This document shows, piece after piece, positions 6,593 through 17,263 of a stretch of 58,079 nt of DNA. The notes below the pieces were generated by a model. It searched no databases and was not told where the DNA came from. It saw nothing but the letters and a program-made list of their open reading frames with translations. The translations under genes and the position numbers were made by a program. The stretch spans positions 1-58,079 of the forward strand of contig DROS01000060.1 in NCBI GenBank assembly GCA_011321815.1, read 5' to 3'. Numbering within the stretch: the first letter of the stretch is position 1; every line of letters starts with the position of its first letter. Source of the stretch: Gammaproteobacteria bacterium. GTDB taxonomy: Bacteria; Pseudomonadota; Gammaproteobacteria; SZUA-152.

Positions 6593-8412
6593 ACCTCATC
6601 GCCATTGCCATACTTGCGCCTCTTGTGGCGGCAGTGCTTATCCTGTTGCTGCGGCGCGCGCCTGCCGCGCTGTCACTGCTGGGCACAGTAATCGGCCTGA
6701 TCGCCAGCATCGGCCTGCTAACCAATGCCTTTGCCGGCGTGGCGGGCGCATTGACCCTGCCCGGCCTGCCGGACATGCCGCTGCTGCTGGTGGCCACACC
6801 ACTGACCGCCCTGCTTTCAACCCTGGTGGCGGTGATCTGCATCTTTGTAATGATTTACGCCGTTGGCTACATGAAAAAGGACGACGAAAAAGTTCGCTTT
6901 TCTGCCACCCTGTTGTTATTCGCTGCGGCCATGCAGACCTTGGTGCTCGCCGGTGACTGGATTTTGCTGCTCGCCGCATGGGAACTCATTGGCCTGAGCA
7001 GCTACCTGTTGATCGGCTTCTGGTATCGACGACCGGGTGTCACCTCCGCAGCCACCCGCGCCTTCATGGTGACCCGCAGCGCGGACCTGGGACTGTATAT
7101 TGCGGTGTTCATTCTCATCGCCACTACCGGCAGCAGCGACATCGCCACCACGCTGAACACGGGCGGCAGTGCAGCGATTGTCGCCGGACTTTTGCTACTG
7201 GTGGCCGCCATGGGGAAATCGGCACAAACCCCCTTGCACGACTGGTTGCAACGCGCCATGGCCGGGCCCACGCCGGTATCAGCACTGCTGCATTCCGCCA
7301 CCCTGGTGGCCGCCGGCGCCATTCTGCTGATCCGCACAGCCCCCATGTTGCCTGCGGAAACCCTGCTGGTGATCGGCATCGTCGGCGGCATCACCACCGT
7401 GGTCACCGGCCTCATCGCGCTGGGTGAAAATGATCTCAAACGCCTGCTGGCGGCATCCACCTCCAGCCAGTACGGGCTGATGTTGTTGGCGGTGGGTGCG
7501 GGTGTGCCACTGGCGGCGCTGCTGCATTTGATTGCCCATGCCGCCATTAAAAGCGCCCTGTTCCTCGGTGCGGGCGTGTTCCAGCACAGCCGCGACGGCA
7601 CGACATTCGGCAAACTGGAGGGTGCCGGACGAGACCAGCCACGCATATTTTTTGGTTTTGCGCTGGCGGCATTGGCGCTGGCGGGTATCCCGCCGCTGAG
7701 CGGTTTCTTTTCCAAGGATGCCATCATTGCCGCCTCGCTGGCCTCGTCCGATGCATGGCTGCTGGCGAGCTTCGCCCTGGCAGGCACCCTGCTAACCGGT
7801 GCCTACATGGCCCGGGCATTGAGCATCCTGTGGCACGGTGACCGCCAGAAACGCAGCATACCGGGGCTGGGCTGGATGGGTGCCGGACTGGCTGGGCTGG
7901 TCACCCTGGCCGTCATTCTGGGCGCTTTTTTTCCATCCATCGAAACATTGCTGCGTGCATCACTGGCTGAAGATGAAAACACCCTCGCGCAAATCCTTGG
8001 ACTGAGTGCGGCACTGAGTGGTCTGGCACTGGGCTGGTTTATTTCAGGGGAACGCCTGCTGGGACCACTGTTGCCCTGGTCACAACGGGGTTTTGCCGTG
8101 GCCGGTGGTATGGACAATCTGCTGGTGCGCCCCGCCTTCGCCATTGCCCGCCGCTGTGAAAAACTGGAGCGCAGCCTGTACACCGGCGTGCTGGCCGTGG
8201 GGCGGCTTGGGCTCAATATTGGGCGAGGTGCGCGCTTCGGTGACGAACGCGGCATCGACGGACTGATCTTTGCCCTGGTGCGGGGCACGATCAATCTTGG
8301 CAATCGCGCCCGTACTTTGCAGAGTGGTCTGATCCATCGTGAGATGGCCATCACCGTGGTGGGTGCAGCGCTGATTTTTGCCATCCTGTTTATTCCCTTA
8401 CTGTTTTTTTAA
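6589..8412 (+). CDS. nuoL: NuoL-like proton-translocating antiporter subunit
   Basis: A 607-residue membrane protein of the Mrp-antiporter/NuoL class. It keeps the helix-5 Glu in LLLAAWELIGLSSYLLIGFW and the Lys/His motifs in MGKSAQTPLHDWLQRAMAGP followed by TPVSALLHSATLV. The C-terminal extension (about 530-607) with a last hydrophobic segment is consistent with the lateral helix that clamps the membrane arm. It starts with GTG in a 4-bp overlap with the nuoK-like gene. The proton-channel residues of this subunit appear intact, in contrast to the missing redox modules. Confidence 0.92.
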   Translation: MNLIAIAILAPLVAAVLILLLRRAPAALSLLGTVIGLIASIGLLTNAFAGVAGALTLPGLPDMPLLLVATPLTALLSTLVAVICIFVMIYAVGYMKKDDEKVRFSATLLLFAAAMQTLVLAGDWILLLAAWELIGLSSYLLIGFWYRRPGVTSAATRAFMVTRSADLGLYIAVFILIATTGSSDIATTLNTGGSAAIVAGLLLLVAAMGKSAQTPLHDWLQRAMAGPTPVSALLHSATLVAAGAILLIRTAPMLPAETLLVIGIVGGITTVVTGLIALGENDLKRLLAASTSSQYGLMLLAVGAGVPLAALLHLIAHAAIKSALFLGAGVFQHSRDGTTFGKLEGAGRDQPRIFFGFALAALALAGIPPLSGFFSKDAIIAASLASSDAWLLASFALAGTLLTGAYMARALSILWHGDRQKRSIPGLGWMGAGLAGLVTLAVILGAFFPSIETLLRASLAEDENTLAQILGLSAALSGLALGWFISGERLLGPLLPWSQRGFAVAGGMDNLLVRPAFAIARRCEKLERSLYTGVLAVGRLGLNIGRGARFGDERGIDGLIFALVRGTINLGNRARTLQSGLIHREMAITVVGAALIFAILFIPLLFF

Positions 8413-8427
8413 CCAGGAGAAAGCCGA

Positions 8428-9897
8428 GTGCTTCCCATTGTATCCATCACCCTGTTTCTGCCGCTGCTCGGCGCGTTGCTCATCATGGCCCTGCGCAAGA
8501 CATCGACGCAGGCCATACATGCTATCGGTATCATTACCAGCGGACTGACCCTGCTGGGATCGCTGTGGATGTGGTCGCGCGGTGTCAACGAAACAGGTTT
8601 CGCCCAGCTCGAAGAGCTTGACTGGATGCCTTCCATTGGTGCCGCCTATCGCGTGGGCGTGGACGGCATCAGTCTGCCCCTGGTGCTGTTGACCACCCTG
8701 CTGTTTTTCCTGACCTTAATTTATTCGGCCAAGGTAAAGGAACGGCCACAGGCCTTCGTGGTGTTGATGCTGTTACTGGAAACCGCCGCCATCGGCACCT
8801 TCACGGCGCTGGATGCGATCCTGTTTTATGTGTTCTTTGAAGTGTCGCTGGTCTCCATGTACTTCATGATTGCAGGCTGGGGACACGAAGACCGTCAGCG
8901 CGCCGCGCTGATGTTTTTCATCTATACCCTGTTAGGTAGCCTGCCATTATTGCTGGCGATACTCGGGCTGTATCTGGGCAGCGAGCCGCATACCTTCGAC
9001 ATGCGCGTGTGGATCAACAACCCACCTCTGGACGGCCTGGCCGCCATGCTGGCATTGATTGCCATGCTGTTCACCTTTGCGGTCAAAACACCGGTGTTTC
9101 CGTTTCACACCTGGCTGCCCGCCGCGCATGTGCAGGCACCTGCGGCGGGCAGCGTGATCCTCGCCGGGGTGATGCTGAAATTCGGCACCTACGGACTGGT
9201 GCGGTTTGCACTGCAAATGACACCGGATGCATTTCGCGATGCGGGTATTGTCATCCTGATATTCGGTGTGGTCGCTGCCCTTTACGGTGCCTTTGCCGCG
9301 CTGGCGCAGAGTGATATCAAACGCCTCATCGCCTATACCTCGGTTAATCATATGGGCTATGTCATCGTCGGTGTGGCCATCGCCGCACTGGCGCTGGATC
9401 CGGCAATTCGGGCCACGGCACTGGACGGTTCCGTATTGCAAATGGTCAGCCACGGACTGGTCACCGGCGCCCTGTTTTTTCTGGTCGGCATGTTGCAGGA
9501 TCGCGCCCATACGCGCGAAATGGACCAGTTCGGCGGCCTGTTGAAAATAACGCCCATACTCGGCTGGTCCTTTGTGCTGGCCGCCTTCGCCTCACTGGGC
9601 CTGCCGGGACTGGCGCACTTTCCGGCCGAGTTCCAGATATTTCTGGTGACACTGCAAGTCGAACCGGCAGCCGTGATCGTGATTCTTGGCATCGTCATCA
9701 CCGCTGGCCTGTATCTGCGGGCCATTGGCAAAGTCTTCCTCGGTGAGCCAAACGAAAAATGGCTGGCGATGAGTGATCTGAATACGCGCGAGGTACTCAC
9801 CCTGGCGCCGCTGTTGATACTGATCATCGTCGTGGGCATTGCACCGGCCCTGGTGCTGGATATGATTCACAAAACCACCGCAGCGTTACAGTTCTGA
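8428..9897 (+). CDS. nuoM: NuoM-like proton-translocating antiporter subunit
   Basis: A 489-residue subunit of normal NuoM length with about 14 helices. The key Glu is in FYVFFEVSLVSMYFMIAGW, and the Lys-containing helix is in FAVKTPVFPFHTWLPAAHVQ, followed by APAAGSVILAGVMLKFG, which is diagnostic of NuoM. The GTG start at 8428 has AGGAG at about 8415-8419. The stop overlaps the next start (TGATG). It is inferred to form one of three antiporter modules in the membrane arm. Confidence 0.93.
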   Translation: MLPIVSITLFLPLLGALLIMALRKTSTQAIHAIGIITSGLTLLGSLWMWSRGVNETGFAQLEELDWMPSIGAAYRVGVDGISLPLVLLTTLLFFLTLIYSAKVKERPQAFVVLMLLLETAAIGTFTALDAILFYVFFEVSLVSMYFMIAGWGHEDRQRAALMFFIYTLLGSLPLLLAILGLYLGSEPHTFDMRVWINNPPLDGLAAMLALIAMLFTFAVKTPVFPFHTWLPAAHVQAPAAGSVILAGVMLKFGTYGLVRFALQMTPDAFRDAGIVILIFGVVAALYGAFAALAQSDIKRLIAYTSVNHMGYVIVGVAIAALALDPAIRATALDGSVLQMVSHGLVTGALFFLVGMLQDRAHTREMDQFGGLLKITPILGWSFVLAAFASLGLPGLAHFPAEFQIFLVTLQVEPAAVIVILGIVITAGLYLRAIGKVFLGEPNEKWLAMSDLNTREVLTLAPLLILIIVVGIAPALVLDMIHKTTAALQF

Positions 9898-12719: not shown

Positions 12720-12847
12720 ACTAAAGAGGTATTACTTAACATTGGTACTAATGCAAACAGCCGGTACTGCTCATCGCCAAGAAAAACCTGGTTTCGTATA
12801 CCTTCCCAGGCACAGGGTTCATAATCTACTGCATCACGATACCCCAT
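12720..12847 (-). pseudogene. Possible fragment of a REP-associated tyrosine transposase
   Basis: On the minus strand, just 3' of merB, the translation GYRDAVDYEPCAWEGIRNQV followed by FLGDEQYRLFALVP resembles the C-terminal part of Y1/REP-associated transposases (…W..LR.QIFLGDE.F…). There is no start, no catalytic Tyr or HUH region, and the frame then runs into unrelated sequence. I treat it as a relic, recognised only by motif similarity. Confidence 0.35.
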
Positions 12848-13559
12848 TTCGATATTGTGTCATCAGCCCGGGAAATTTTCGGTGATTGATCATTTGCGCC
12901 AATTCAAATGCATTCTCAACGGATATCAGGAAATTTTCCGGATGTTCCGCTACCCATTGCTCGCCTAACTCTGATGTTGCAAAGAACAATACCGAATGGC
13001 AGAAGCTATTGATTACATCTTCGCGGATACCGTTTTCATCCGGCATCACAAACGATAATACTGTGGTTTCGGGGTAAACCGATGCAATGTGTTCTGGGTC
13101 GATAATGAGTTGTATTTCTTTGCCACTCTGGGTACATTGTGAAATGACTTGTACGGTATTGCCAATCAAGGCTGGGAGAAACAAAGTGTCCCAGGCGCAC
13201 CACGCGTAAAGTTCACGTCCATCAATCAGTAACTTGTGAGGCATTTCGCCGAGCGCCAGCCCCCAGAAACCGGTCACGTTTTCTGCATCATCGTGATAAA
13301 CGCCCAGCCACTGGCCCAACAGACGATGCACCTCGGCTACTGGCGTAGAACTAACTTCTGCCAAATGCTGATGTGAGACGGACTCACCCAAGGCCAACAG
13401 GCGGTAAAGGGCAATAGCCATAGCCTGTTCTTTCGGGCTTATTTTGACAAACTCCTCAGGGAAGGCATTGAGTAACGCATCAAGATCCGGTGAGTCGAGA
13501 GCTGTTGTGTGTGTAAACATATTTTGAACTTTCTGACAGTAAATAAAACCTGTCGTCAT
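12834..13559 (-). CDS. merB: Alkylmercury lyase MerB
   Basis: A 241-residue organomercurial lyase that breaks the C-Hg bond of methyl- or phenylmercury, giving Hg(II) for MerA. The catalytic set is visible: LYAWCAWDTLFLPALIG holds Cys121 and Asp124, and INSFCHSVLFF holds Cys187, equivalent to C96, D99 and C159 of the plasmid R831b enzyme. An N-terminal helical winged-helix-like domain precedes. I start at the ATG at 13559, which shares its A with the merD stop (TGATG) after a GGGGG stretch; a later ATG at 13520 would also give a normal-length protein. It is the last gene of the mer operon. Confidence 0.93.
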   Translation of the reverse strand: MTTGFIYCQKVQNMFTHTTALDSPDLDALLNAFPEEFVKISPKEQAMAIALYRLLALGESVSHQHLAEVSSTPVAEVHRLLGQWLGVYHDDAENVTGFWGLALGEMPHKLLIDGRELYAWCAWDTLFLPALIGNTVQVISQCTQSGKEIQLIIDPEHIASVYPETTVLSFVMPDENGIREDVINSFCHSVLFFATSELGEQWVAEHPENFLISVENAFELAQMINHRKFPGLMTQYRNGVS

Positions 13560-13915
13560 CAACCCCCATCTGTAGAACGTTTTATCCCATCAAGTTGTGA
13601 CATGAAGGAGCCTAGCATTTTGTACTTTTTATTTAGCACTGCTTCAATCGCTTCTAATTTTTGGAGTATGCGTTCCTCTTTCTGCTCATCAAGTGCTTCA
13701 CACAAGCCAGCAAGGTCGCTAAGACCAACCCCTGCTACGATACCAGCCCGAATAAAACATAGGCGGGATAATGCAGATTCATCGTAAATACTGTAACCAC
13801 ATTCAGCGCAGTCACAAGGCCGTAACATACCGCGCATTTGATAATTGCGCACGATGTCTGTACTGACACCGGCATCTTTAGCAAGTTTTGATATGGTATA
13901 AGCTTTAGGTGGCAT
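13559..13915 (-). CDS. merD: MerD, secondary regulator of the mer operon
   Basis: A 118-residue MerR-superfamily protein. It opens with AYTISKLAKDAGVSTDIVRN and RGMLRPCDCAECGYSIYDES, then LSRLCFIRAGIVAGVGLSDL, matching MerD rather than MerR: the Hg-binding Cys triad of MerR is absent and the length is that of MerD (about 120). MerD binds the same mer operator and helps shut the operon down. Its promoter-distal position just before merB is typical. It is the only mer regulator gene in the window. Confidence 0.88.
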   Translation of the reverse strand: MPPKAYTISKLAKDAGVSTDIVRNYQMRGMLRPCDCAECGYSIYDESALSRLCFIRAGIVAGVGLSDLAGLCEALDEQKEERILQKLEAIEAVLNKKYKMLGSFMSQLDGIKRSTDGG

Positions 13916-13951: not shown

Positions 13952-14740
13952 TCATTTTTGAACGCCTCTATTTATCCCTACGATACAGCCCATACTACAG
14001 GCCAGAGCAAGCGTTTGAGCCGCGATTCGGGGGACCTGTTCCTCAGTGGTGACCTGTGACAATTCCAGGCAACATTTACCAAATGAACTACCCGATATTA
14101 AAAAAGTGAATACGCGATGAATGGCTGCTTCAATAACTTGCATCGAGGGACCTTTAGCTGCCCGCCACACTACAAGATGTTCATCGGTATCCGGTTCCAA
14201 TGCAGGGATTTTATCCTCTCCATTGCGCACTGCCGACCAACATTCGCGGGCATTACAGGAAACTGTAACGAGTGATACAGATGGATGAAAATCAAAGATT
14301 AAGTGTTCCCAGTCATTCGGCGGAATTTGTGCCAGTATGTCTGCGTCCAGGGATTCCTTGTCGGCGGCATCAAAGGCCTCCACCACTGCCCATTCCAATT
14401 CAGCGACATCCGCCAACACAGATTCATCCTCCTCGCGCAACCATTGTGGCAAGACGCGGCCAAAATCACGCAAACTAGGATGAGTGGATGGATTGGCTTT
14501 TATAAATCGTGACGTCAATTCACCAAAGTGTGCATCACCTGCCACGGCAAGCAACGTTGGAAAATCGTGGGCGATAGCTTCCTGCAAACGGATGTAGTAT
14601 GCATTGCGATACACTTCCAGCCGTAGTTGTGCTGGAATGTTGTTGCTTGCAGCAATCTGCGGCAGAAGTTGTCGTTCATTTCTGCCGGAAAACAGAAAGT
14701 CCTGGAACTCCCCCTGTAAATGTCGAATAGCCTTTGTCAT
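13952..14740 (-). CDS. bufC: BufC/HvfC-family protein (DUF2063), MNIO partner
   Basis: A 262-residue cytoplasmic protein of the DUF2063 family (QGEFQDFLFSGRNERQLLP near the start, then QLRLEVYRNAYYIRLQEAIAHDFP). These proteins accompany DUF692 multinuclear non-heme iron oxidases and are thought to recruit the precursor peptide. The start overlaps the bufB stop by 4 bp (ATGA), so the two are surely co-translated. Placement inside a mercury operon, ahead of merD, is the unusual point. Confidence 0.87.
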   Translation of the reverse strand: MTKAIRHLQGEFQDFLFSGRNERQLLPQIAASNNIPAQLRLEVYRNAYYIRLQEAIAHDFPTLLAVAGDAHFGELTSRFIKANPSTHPSLRDFGRVLPQWLREEDESVLADVAELEWAVVEAFDAADKESLDADILAQIPPNDWEHLIFDFHPSVSLVTVSCNARECWSAVRNGEDKIPALEPDTDEHLVVWRAAKGPSMQVIEAAIHRVFTFLISGSSFGKCCLELSQVTTEEQVPRIAAQTLALACSMGCIVGINRGVQK

Positions 14741-15564
14741 GCAACCAGGGCCCGCTGGCTGATCTGACGCGCCTCGTTCAGTTCCAGCAGCAATTCCGTT
14801 AACGGTGGAATATTATCATCCCGTTCGATCATGGTGGGCACCTCGCCTAGTCGGTGAATGGTCTGCCGGTACAATTCCCAGACCGGATCGGCAATGGGAT
14901 GATCATGCGTATCGATTAATAAGGGCTCTTGCACCGTGTGTCCGGCCAGGTGAATTTGTTGCACCCGTTCAATTGGAATATTTTGCAAATAGCTCTCGGC
15001 ATCAAATCCATGGTTATGGGCACTGACAACGATGTTATTGACATCTAACAATATATAGCAGTCTGCGGTCTTGGCCACCGTGCTCAGAAAGGCGGATTCA
15101 TTGATACTGTTTTCAGTAAACTCGGCATAACTGGAAACGTTTTCAATGAGGATACGACGTTGTAAATAATCCTGAACGATGCCGATGCGTTCCGCGACAT
15201 GTTTTACTGATTCCTCAGTGTATGGCAGAGGTAGTAGATCGTGAAGGTGATGACCCCCGTGTCGTGTCCAGCATAAATGATCAGAGACTCGCACTGGATT
15301 AACACGCTCAACTAAACCTTTTAGACGGTTGAGATAATCTCTATCCAAAGGATCGGTGCCGCCCAAATTCATGGAGACACCGTGCAGGGCGAGCGGATAA
15401 CGATCAGCCACAGCATCGAGGATGCGTAATGGATTACCGCCATCAACCATAAAGTTTTCGCTGATTACCTCGAACCAGTCCACCGCGACTTCACCCACAG
15501 CCGCAGCCTGATAAAAAGGCGGTCGTAATCCTAGGCCGAATCCTCCTCTGGTTGCATGAGGCAT
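14737..15564 (-). CDS. bufB: MNIO (DUF692) peptide-modifying oxidase, BufB-like
   Basis: A 275-residue TIM-barrel enzyme of the DUF692/UPF0276 family, now known as multinuclear non-heme iron-dependent oxidases. Metal-ligand-bearing motifs are visible: HGVSMNLGG, SDHLCWTRHGGHHLHD, ENVSSYAEF, DVNNIVVSAHNHG, QIHLAGH, DTHDHP and ERDDNIP. Family members such as MbnB and BufB modify Cys residues of precursor peptides to oxazolone/thioamide or thiooxazole groups that bind copper. The substrates here are presumably the CWGIN…CKG peptide encoded just upstream and the peptide domain of the MerC fusion. Confidence 0.92.
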   Translation of the reverse strand: MPHATRGGFGLGLRPPFYQAAAVGEVAVDWFEVISENFMVDGGNPLRILDAVADRYPLALHGVSMNLGGTDPLDRDYLNRLKGLVERVNPVRVSDHLCWTRHGGHHLHDLLPLPYTEESVKHVAERIGIVQDYLQRRILIENVSSYAEFTENSINESAFLSTVAKTADCYILLDVNNIVVSAHNHGFDAESYLQNIPIERVQQIHLAGHTVQEPLLIDTHDHPIADPVWELYRQTIHRLGEVPTMIERDDNIPPLTELLLELNEARQISQRALVA

Positions 15565-15571
15565 CAGATTT

Positions 15572-15931
15572 TTAACTCTTGCTCTTTTTCGGGTCGGCCG
15601 GTGAGCCTTTCAGAGGGACGCCACCTTTTTCCTTACACTCTTCTTTCGAGCTGACATTTAAGAAACCTTTACCCTTGCAATCATTTTTCCCGTTGCAGGC
15701 ATTAAAGGCTGTAGTGCAATCCGTAGTGCCTTTGCAGGAGTTGATTCCCCAGCAGGCGAATTTTTTTCCTCCGGCTTCGGCATCTTTAATAAAACCAACA
15801 CCTGTTTTATCGATGCTGCCGAAAACCCCGGCTGCTGTAACGGCCAGCGCAGCGGCGGCAAATTTTCGCTTAGATTGATCTACGGTCTCTGTTGTTTCAA
15901 CTTGAGCATCCGTTGTTTTCCGTCTTGTCAT
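15572..15931 (-). CDS. bufA: Bufferin-like precursor peptide
   Basis: A 119-residue precursor. A charged N terminus is followed by a hydrophobic stretch, FAAAALAVTAAGVFGSI, that looks like a signal or membrane segment. The core follows: ACWGINSCKGTTDCTTAFNA and CNGKNDCKGKGF, with six Cys (60, 66, 72, 79, 85, 99) in the spacing of the second bufferin type. In the described systems MNIO modifies core Cys and the exported peptide sequesters copper. I start at the ATG at 15931, with AGGAA just upstream; an in-frame upstream start at 15994 would overlap the previous gene. The linkage to mer genes suggests Hg(II) binding as an alternative; this is inference. Confidence 0.88.
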   Translation of the reverse strand: MTRRKTTDAQVETTETVDQSKRKFAAAALAVTAAGVFGSIDKTGVGFIKDAEAGGKKFACWGINSCKGTTDCTTAFNACNGKNDCKGKGFLNVSSKEECKEKGGVPLKGSPADPKKSKS

Positions 15932-15959: not shown

Positions 15960-16661
15960 TTACCCATTGGCAGGGTCTGCTGCCGACCCTTCAAGGGGTA
16001 CTCCGCCTTTTAAAGTGCATTCTTTTTCCGGTACATTAAGGAAACCTTTACCCTTGCAATCGTTTTGCCCATTGCATGAATTAAAAGCTGTGGTGCAATC
16101 CGTAGTACCTTTGCAATCATTAATTCCCCAACAGGCGATTTCTCCTGCTTCGGCGGCCGGCGCGAGCACATCAACAGATTTATACAATCCGTAAAAAGCG
16201 ACGGCGGCACCGGCGCTTAATGCCGCACCGGTCGTAATACGTTTGCTCATATCAACGGGTTCGTTGCTTGTTGTTTTCACCGTTTCACAAGATGGTGTTT
16301 TTCGACCATTGATGAAGTCCCAGACACTGGCCGCTACAAGAGCAACAAAACTGGTATACACTAGCCAATGAATCGGATAGATGCCGGTTAACATAAACCA
16401 CAATGCAATAATACTGATCAGTCCTGCTGTAAGCCCCATCCAGAAAGGTGCAGTCTTCCCTCGTCCTTTGGTGGCATTATAAAGTGTCCAAAGGTTCAGT
16501 CCGATAAAACCAACAAAGATTGGAAAAAGATAAGCATCTTGTATCAAAAAACCTAGCCCAATGGCACCGACCGCTGACAGCACTGCAACAATACCAAGGC
16601 AACATGCTGCGGCGACACCTGCCCCAATCAGCGCACTAAATTGTTTAAAAACAGCTTTCAC
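15960..16661 (-). CDS. MerC-like transporter fused to a bufferin-like core
   Basis: A 233-residue chimera. Residues 1-118 are MerC-like: GAGVAAACCLGIVAVLSAVG with a Cys20-Cys21 pair in helix 1, then three more helices. After a linker (119-137), residues 138-170 form another hydrophobic segment beginning with Met138 that looks like a bufferin leader. Residues 175-233 repeat the bufferin core (ACWGINDCKGTTDCTTAFNS, CNGQNDCKGKGF; Cys 177, 183, 189, 196, 202, 215), near identical in pattern to the adjacent bufA. The start is GTG after AGAGGA. A membrane Hg(II) importer physically tied to a modified metal-binding peptide would be a new arrangement as far as I know. No Shine-Dalgarno precedes Met138. 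Confidence 0.87.
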   Translation of the reverse strand: MKAVFKQFSALIGAGVAAACCLGIVAVLSAVGAIGLGFLIQDAYLFPIFVGFIGLNLWTLYNATKGRGKTAPFWMGLTAGLISIIALWFMLTGIYPIHWLVYTSFVALVAASVWDFINGRKTPSCETVKTTSNEPVDMSKRITTGAALSAGAAVAFYGLYKSVDVLAPAAEAGEIACWGINDCKGTTDCTTAFNSCNGQNDCKGKGFLNVPEKECTLKGGVPLEGSAADPANG

Positions 16662-16753: not shown

Positions 16754-17263
16754 CTACACGTTACAGCAAACGCCGTTTACAACCTTTTTTGCATTCTGAT
16801 AGAGGGCAAAGAACAGCAATAACGTTGCGGCGGTAAACAACTCAACCTGGTGTGTAGCAATAAAACCCTGAACCTGCACGCCAAAACTGCCAAACATCGT
16901 CGGTATTAGCGTCGCGATGAAACCCATCATCATTGGTAGTAACGGAGAGCAACATAAGATGGGAGCCAGAACACCAATCAGTACGCCCCCTGTTGCCGAA
17001 CTTTTGCTGGCCTTCTGCCCTTGTCTAATTAAATAAACAATCAAGGGAATGAGCAGTGCAACCAATGCCGCCATAAGGATAGAAAAACTCACTAGCGTTC
17101 CGTTAAGATATTCGAGCGCCTCGAAACTGCTGTAGCCTCCGGTGTATGAAGCTGGCAAGGTCGTCAGATATAAACCCAGAAAGAAAACAAAACTGATGGC
17201 TACAATCAGCTGATAGCTTCGGATCGTCAGTACGGTTTTTAAGGCATCAACAATAGTTTTCAT
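16754..17263 (-). CDS. Membrane protein of the mer operon, unknown function
   Basis: A 169-residue protein with about four hydrophobic segments. It has a Cys pair in GVLAPILCCSPLLPMMMGFI and a second pair at the extreme C terminus (VCCNV). Paired membrane Cys followed by Pro are the hallmark of mercury carriers such as MerT, MerC and MerF, but overall I do not recognise one of those families. It overlaps the thioredoxin-like gene by 4 bp (ATGA), so it is co-translated. A role in moving Hg(II) or thiol reductant across the inner membrane is possible. Confidence 0.75.
   Translation of the reverse strand: MKTIVDALKTVLTIRSYQLIVAISFVFFLGLYLTTLPASYTGGYSSFEALEYLNGTLVSFSILMAALVALLIPLIVYLIRQGQKASKSSATGGVLIGVLAPILCCSPLLPMMMGFIATLIPTMFGSFGVQVQGFIATHQVELFTAATLLLFFALYQNAKKVVNGVCCNV

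Follow-up and report, generated by a model that had tools for sequence, protein, structure and literature searches.

Within a mercury-resistance (mer) operon on the 58,079-nucleotide stretch of gammaproteobacterial DNA analysed here (the window), one reading frame appears to join a MerC-like membrane protein to a bufferin, raising the questions of whether the two are truly a single gene, how such a chain arose and what a bufferin attached to a putative Hg permease might do. The MerC–bufferin fusion is genuine and is conserved in at least six other bacteria, and sequence comparison indicates that it is the end-to-end joining of a mer-operon merC and a complete Buf2 bufferin precursor. Its parts, and the free bufferin gene beside it, are these:

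15960–16661, minus strand: merC::bufA2 fusion gene, 233 aa, GTG start with an AGAGGA Shine–Dalgarno sequence
16296–16661, minus strand: MerC-like part, residues 1–122, four predicted helices (PF03203 and alignment; helices from a low-confidence model)
16236–16310, minus strand: positively charged linker, residues 118–142, predicted cytoplasmic, aligning partly with the bufA N terminus
16134–16235, minus strand: fifth segment and juxtamembrane stretch, residues 143–176, homologous to the bufferin signal peptide
15963–16133, minus strand: six-Cys bufferin (Buf2) core, residues 177–233 (NF050166)
15572–15931, minus strand: bufA, free Buf2 precursor, 119 aa (NF050166, 71.5 bits; ATG with a GAGGA Shine–Dalgarno sequence)

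An earlier note on this DNA had placed the fusion at 15960–16661, correctly, and the gene lies on the minus strand. The frame is uninterrupted over 233 codons (the other two frames of that strand hold 13 stops each), and AGAGGA is well placed ahead of the GTG start. The stop or frameshift near the junction that the note had named as grounds for splitting the gene is absent: there is a single open frame, and six other genomes carry an unbroken copy of the fusion. A sequencing or assembly error that merged two genes is thus practically inconceivable, as the identical fusion recurs in those six genomes, with the junction frame preserved and the differences mostly at third codon positions. A separate bufferin starting from an internal ATG at 16250 is not favoured; this codon lacks a Shine–Dalgarno sequence and the Met is missing in loci L002, L010, L087 and L088.

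The union of a MerC-like part with a bufferin is borne out by profile matches and by conservation in seven genomes. PF03203 matches residues 10–116 with E = 2.8e-5 and 25.1 bits by hmmscan (gathering score 27.6), and a genome search that included neighbours in frame gave 27.7 bits for the window fusion and 30–42 bits, above the gathering score, for the six relatives. The NCBI MerC equivalog cut-offs are missed by a wide distance (24.2 bits versus 140 and 21.8 bits versus 170), and on this sequence evidence the window protein is best termed MerC-like rather than a Tn21 MerC orthologue. Like MerC (PF03203; NF033784), it has a four-helix part, a Cys pair in helix 1 (the vicinal Cys20–Cys21) and a Cys near the end of that part; unlike MerC, it carries an extra fifth segment and a bufferin core. 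The closing cysteine, C125, is invariant in all seven fusions and is matched by free MerCs from the same operon slot, which mostly end in Cys too. A single origin for the MerC parts would be compatible with the tree, with weak support (54/28).

The bufferin half is recognized by the BufA2 profile NF050166 over residues 146–220 (E = 3e-21, 75.4 bits versus a cut-off of 60), and all six complete fusions exceed that cut-off (69.5–75.4 bits). Its core cysteines are C177, C183, C189, C196, C202 and C215. The earlier note held that the last 59 residues repeat the core of the neighbouring bufA with the same six-Cys spacing. The cores are indeed homologous and share the spacing 6-6-7-6, but the final gap is 13 in the fusion and 14 in bufA, and the similarity extends further than the core, with 61% identity over residues 120–230 (114 residues), signal-peptide-like segment included (122 bits, compared with 30 for the best of 100 shuffles). 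The fused piece is therefore a whole bufferin precursor, and the additional hydrophobic segment that had been noticed between the two parts exists but belongs to the bufferin as its own signal-peptide region. We also weighed whether bufA derives from the fusion, for which the trees give no single direction: bufA nests among the fusions in a tree with 40 other Buf2 proteins (80/83) and is their sister in a tree with 14 others (92/95), and an AU test left the genus-level grouping unrejected (p 0.289).

The six further gammaproteobacterial genomes carry the fusion in frame at 72–44% identity to the window protein (L001, 72%; L002, 61%; L010/L090, 60–63%; L087, 59%; L088, 54%; L089, 44%, the last cut off by a contig end). 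They are the fusion carriers among 369 sampled genomes of the class, and each belongs to another family. Between the window and L001, differences per codon position 1/2/3 are 0.16/0.16/0.72 in the linker and 0.07/0.04/0.61 in the core, a pattern that indicates purifying selection across the fusion junction. In the core 4 of 57 residues differ, in the MerC part 47 of 117; no other part of the protein is as constrained as the core, which is thus in use. Searches of a plasmid collection returned only separate MerC or bufferin matches, and the orders of G178, G078 and G346 (1–4 genomes each) yielded no additional fusions; neither did 337 sampled genomes of a different class of the same phylum, that of G571, at E 1e-20, where chimaeras of the published MerC|Buf1 type may still occur.

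The earlier note had implied that this architecture is new. It is not: Antoine et al. described MerC|Buf1 and MerC|Buf2 chimaeras in mercury-detoxification clusters in 2025, with five predicted membrane segments and a periplasmic bufferin (PMC12452194). The window protein matches the published description of the MerC|Buf2 type (example OOO01496.1) in domain order, with MerC followed in frame by Buf2, and in mer context, so the window copy and its relatives extend a known architecture with new members, and to the description we add an adjacent free bufA and loci with the fusion as sole precursor. With the Buf2 bufferins (NF050166), which belong to the Cys-Lys group of captophorins (PMC13097082), it shares six Cys, BufB and BufC genes and a signal-peptide-like segment; it departs from them in its N-terminal MerC part, the lack of Lys after Cys3 and Cys4, the greater length of the charged stretch that follows the hydrophobic core and the internal position of the segment homologous to their N-terminal Sec signal peptide. 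A functional parallel may be the MerT–MerP fusions (MerTP, NF033556), which likewise place a mer permease and a C-terminal metal-binding domain in a single chain, with MerT in place of MerC and an HMA domain in place of the putatively MNIO-modified bufferin.

The surrounding operon comprises:

12834–13562, minus strand: merB, organomercurial lyase (NF009710, E = 8e-56, 188.6 bits, slightly below the cut-off of 193)
13559–13915, minus strand: merD (TIGR02054, 110.9 bits, cut-off 103.65)
13952–14740, minus strand: bufC, DUF2063 partner protein (PF09836, E = 2.3e-18)
14737–15564, minus strand: bufB, MNIO bufferin maturase (NF050167, 378.9 bits, cut-off 310)
16754–17263, minus strand: 169-aa membrane protein with CC pairs (no Pfam match; slot conserved in L001 and L087)
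17260–17802, minus strand: TlpA/redoxin-like protein with a WCxxC motif (PF08534)
17787–19229, minus strand: merA without an N-terminal HMA domain (TIGR02053, 544.9 bits)
19226–19579, minus strand: merP (TIGR02052, 82.1 bits, cut-off 92.55)
19604–20014, minus strand: merT (PF02411, E = 6.7e-31)

These genes lie on one strand with short gaps, in the order merT-merP-merA, tlpA-like gene, membrane-protein gene, fusion, bufA, bufB, bufC, merD, merB. The TlpA-like and 169-aa Cys-pair proteins between merA and the fusion (16754–17802) are kept in L001 and L087, and may be a redox/transport pair of this mer type. Between 13559 and 20014 we saw no merR beside merT, and in the operon as a whole no MerR-type protein other than MerD; upstream of merT (20206–20557), an arsJ-like MFS transporter is present as fragments in two frames (NF033734, E = 7e-16 and 3e-9).

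Related loci vary around the same theme. L001 reads tlpA–membrane protein–fusion–bufA–bufB–bufC, with a contig end cutting off its upstream side; L087 reads merT-P-A–tlpA–membrane protein–fusion–FAD reductase–bufB–bufC, with a second pyridine-nucleotide-disulphide oxidoreductase at 7008–8486 between fusion and bufB; L002 reads merA–cytochrome–fusion–bufB–bufC; L090 reads merT-P-A–small ORF–fusion; and L088 reads merT-P-A–fusion, with no bufB near the fusion. In all, merA adjoins the fusion in at least five of the seven loci, and BufB scores above its cut-off at least once in each of the eight genomes tested (the seven with fusions and G331). A free merC occupies the slot after merT-P-A in L094, likely the pre-fusion state and consistent with origin by fusion. 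At L002 and L087 the fusion is the sole bufferin beside bufB–bufC, with no separate bufA; being the only candidate there, it is probably itself a substrate of the BufB maturase. Together with the mer operon around the gene, these loci uphold the proposed link between the mer and bufferin systems.

With moderate confidence, we favour as the best overall explanation an anchored, MNIO-modified periplasmic core that acts as a metal trap tethered to the putative Hg permease, its topology, anchoring, modification, metal and hand-over all being inferred. The product would sit in the inner membrane with its N terminus in the cytoplasm. After the four MerC helices would come the linker, positively charged and likewise cytoplasmic, and then what was once the bufferin signal peptide, which would cross the membrane as a fifth segment and so deliver the six-Cys core into the periplasm. 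BufB and BufC would oxidise core cysteines before or during export, most likely in the Cys-Lys motifs of Cys2 and Cys5. The tethered core could then trap Hg(II), perhaps Cu, and either hold it or hand it on to the two cysteines of the MerC part, so that it enters the cell and is reduced by MerA, a transfer from core to permease modelled on that from MerP to MerT. The earlier suggestion that the fusion gives MNIO a membrane-bound substrate is plausible on this evidence, and the protein would be a naturally occurring example of an MNIO that works on the C-terminal end of a polytopic membrane protein.

In all seven fusions, positive charge is found in the N terminus, the loop between helices 2 and 3 and the linker (4–8 positive residues), with none in loops 1–2 and 3–4, and the stretch after segment 5 is net negative in five of the seven. 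This pattern points to an N-in protein with four MerC helices and a cytoplasmic linker, the core lying outside if segment 5 crosses, and it favours a periplasmic core. It agrees with the five segments and periplasmic core described for the MerC|Buf2 chimaeras, but segment 5 is weakly hydrophobic and the helix model has low confidence: mean Kyte–Doolittle values for segment 5 are 0.83–1.35 (window, 1.08), on average below the MerC helices, its 19-residue maxima average 1.23 compared with 1.76 for free Buf2 signal peptides, and the AlphaFold model has five helices at a pLDDT of 49, too low to settle topology. Should segment 5 not cross, the core would be cytoplasmic, open to BufBC, and could stand in for the absent NmerA domain as a thiol acceptor for Hg(II) between MerC and MerA. 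The weak hydrophobicity and the absence of an HMA domain from the window MerA fit this arrangement, which we nevertheless regard as quite improbable: in L087, L090 and L002, MerA starts with an HMA domain despite the fusion, and segment 5 is homologous to export signals, with a charge pattern that fits crossing.

Anchoring itself is favoured by the charge pattern and by the loss of an AxA motif in three of the seven fusions (L001, L002 and L031), and is made doubtful by the weak hydrophobicity of segment 5 and by the AEA|G that the window copy retains. If signal peptidase I cut the pre-protein after that AEA (residues 170–172), the products would be a five-segment MerC and a free periplasmic bufferin with a BufA-like role. 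Export of bufferins normally runs through Sec and relies on a signal peptide (PMC12452194), and AxA|G stands at the matching position in the window copy, L010, L032 and L033. In these four fusions, 16–19 residues, charged ones among them, separate the site from the end of the hydrophobic core, compared with a median of 9 residues in free Buf2 proteins, 43 of 55 of which have no intervening charge. Sites so far past the hydrophobic core, with charges between, are in general poorly cut by signal peptidase. The same doubt applies to the free mer-linked bufA, which has the long stretch too. A FYxxY(K/R)S motif in all seven fusions, a variant of which persists even in L116, where the core is truncated, also speaks against cleavage, and on balance we consider such release somewhat unlikely and retain the anchored core.

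Characterised bufferins bind Cu (PMC12452194, PMC13097082), whereas Hg binding by any bufferin is not reported in the bufferin literature examined. The bufferin part might accordingly serve copper and sit in a mer operon merely as a co-selected metal resistance. This is unlikely in our view, given that merA stands beside at least five of the seven fusions, that mer-linked bufferin cores form one clade (99–100%) and mer-linked BufBs another (SH-aLRT 98), and that the genome has two other bufferin–BufB loci outside the mer operon (C58:7703–7930 and C69:23299–23505 of G000). The C58 bufferin and both BufBs of these loci fall outside the mer-linked clades. Separate clades of maturases and cores speak for a module evolving together.

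Buf2 bufferins are marked by a thiooxazole modification of Cys made by MNIO. BufA2 has been assigned to the Cys-Lys group, with an Asp of BufB2 modelled against the substrate Lys (PMC13097082). Mer-linked BufBs retain Asp or Glu at the position following the putative catalytic Asp, and mer-linked cores have Lys after Cys2 in every case and, with a single exception that carries Arg, after Cys5 as well. Lys after Cys3 or Cys4 never occurs in mer-linked cores (0 of 6 fusions at both positions); the corresponding counts in other Buf2 proteins are 43/62 and 54/62. This Cys-Lys loss at Cys3 and Cys4, and the separate clades of mer-linked bufferins and BufBs, are what our sequence comparisons indicate to be new. 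If Lys marks a modified Cys, mer bufferins would have fewer modifications and more free thiols. An extension that we hold tentatively, and as rather doubtful, is that mer-linked bufferins are a mercury-specialised branch of MNIO peptides, with Cys3 and Cys4 as free thiols for Hg(II), Cys2 and Cys5 converted and the core anchored to its own permease. Bufferins are tied experimentally to copper; a conserved MerC–bufferin chain with its own maturase branch makes mercury handling by MNIO peptides testable.

Longer chains occur as well. L089 (3565–4995 of G346:C98) encodes a three-part chain of an ArsM-like methyltransferase (NF041537, E = 2e-64, below cut-off), MerC and Buf2 that runs off the contig end, a combination that the main text of PMC12452194 does not name among its fusions. 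Further methyltransferase–MerC matches are L118, L119 and L120, L119 having a C-terminal membrane part without a bufferin core. The L116/L034 chain (G331:C1:2611398–2612795) keeps segment 5 and a YAMYKSV motif and terminates in a truncated bufferin remnant (IACADPQTCKEEDHRRT).
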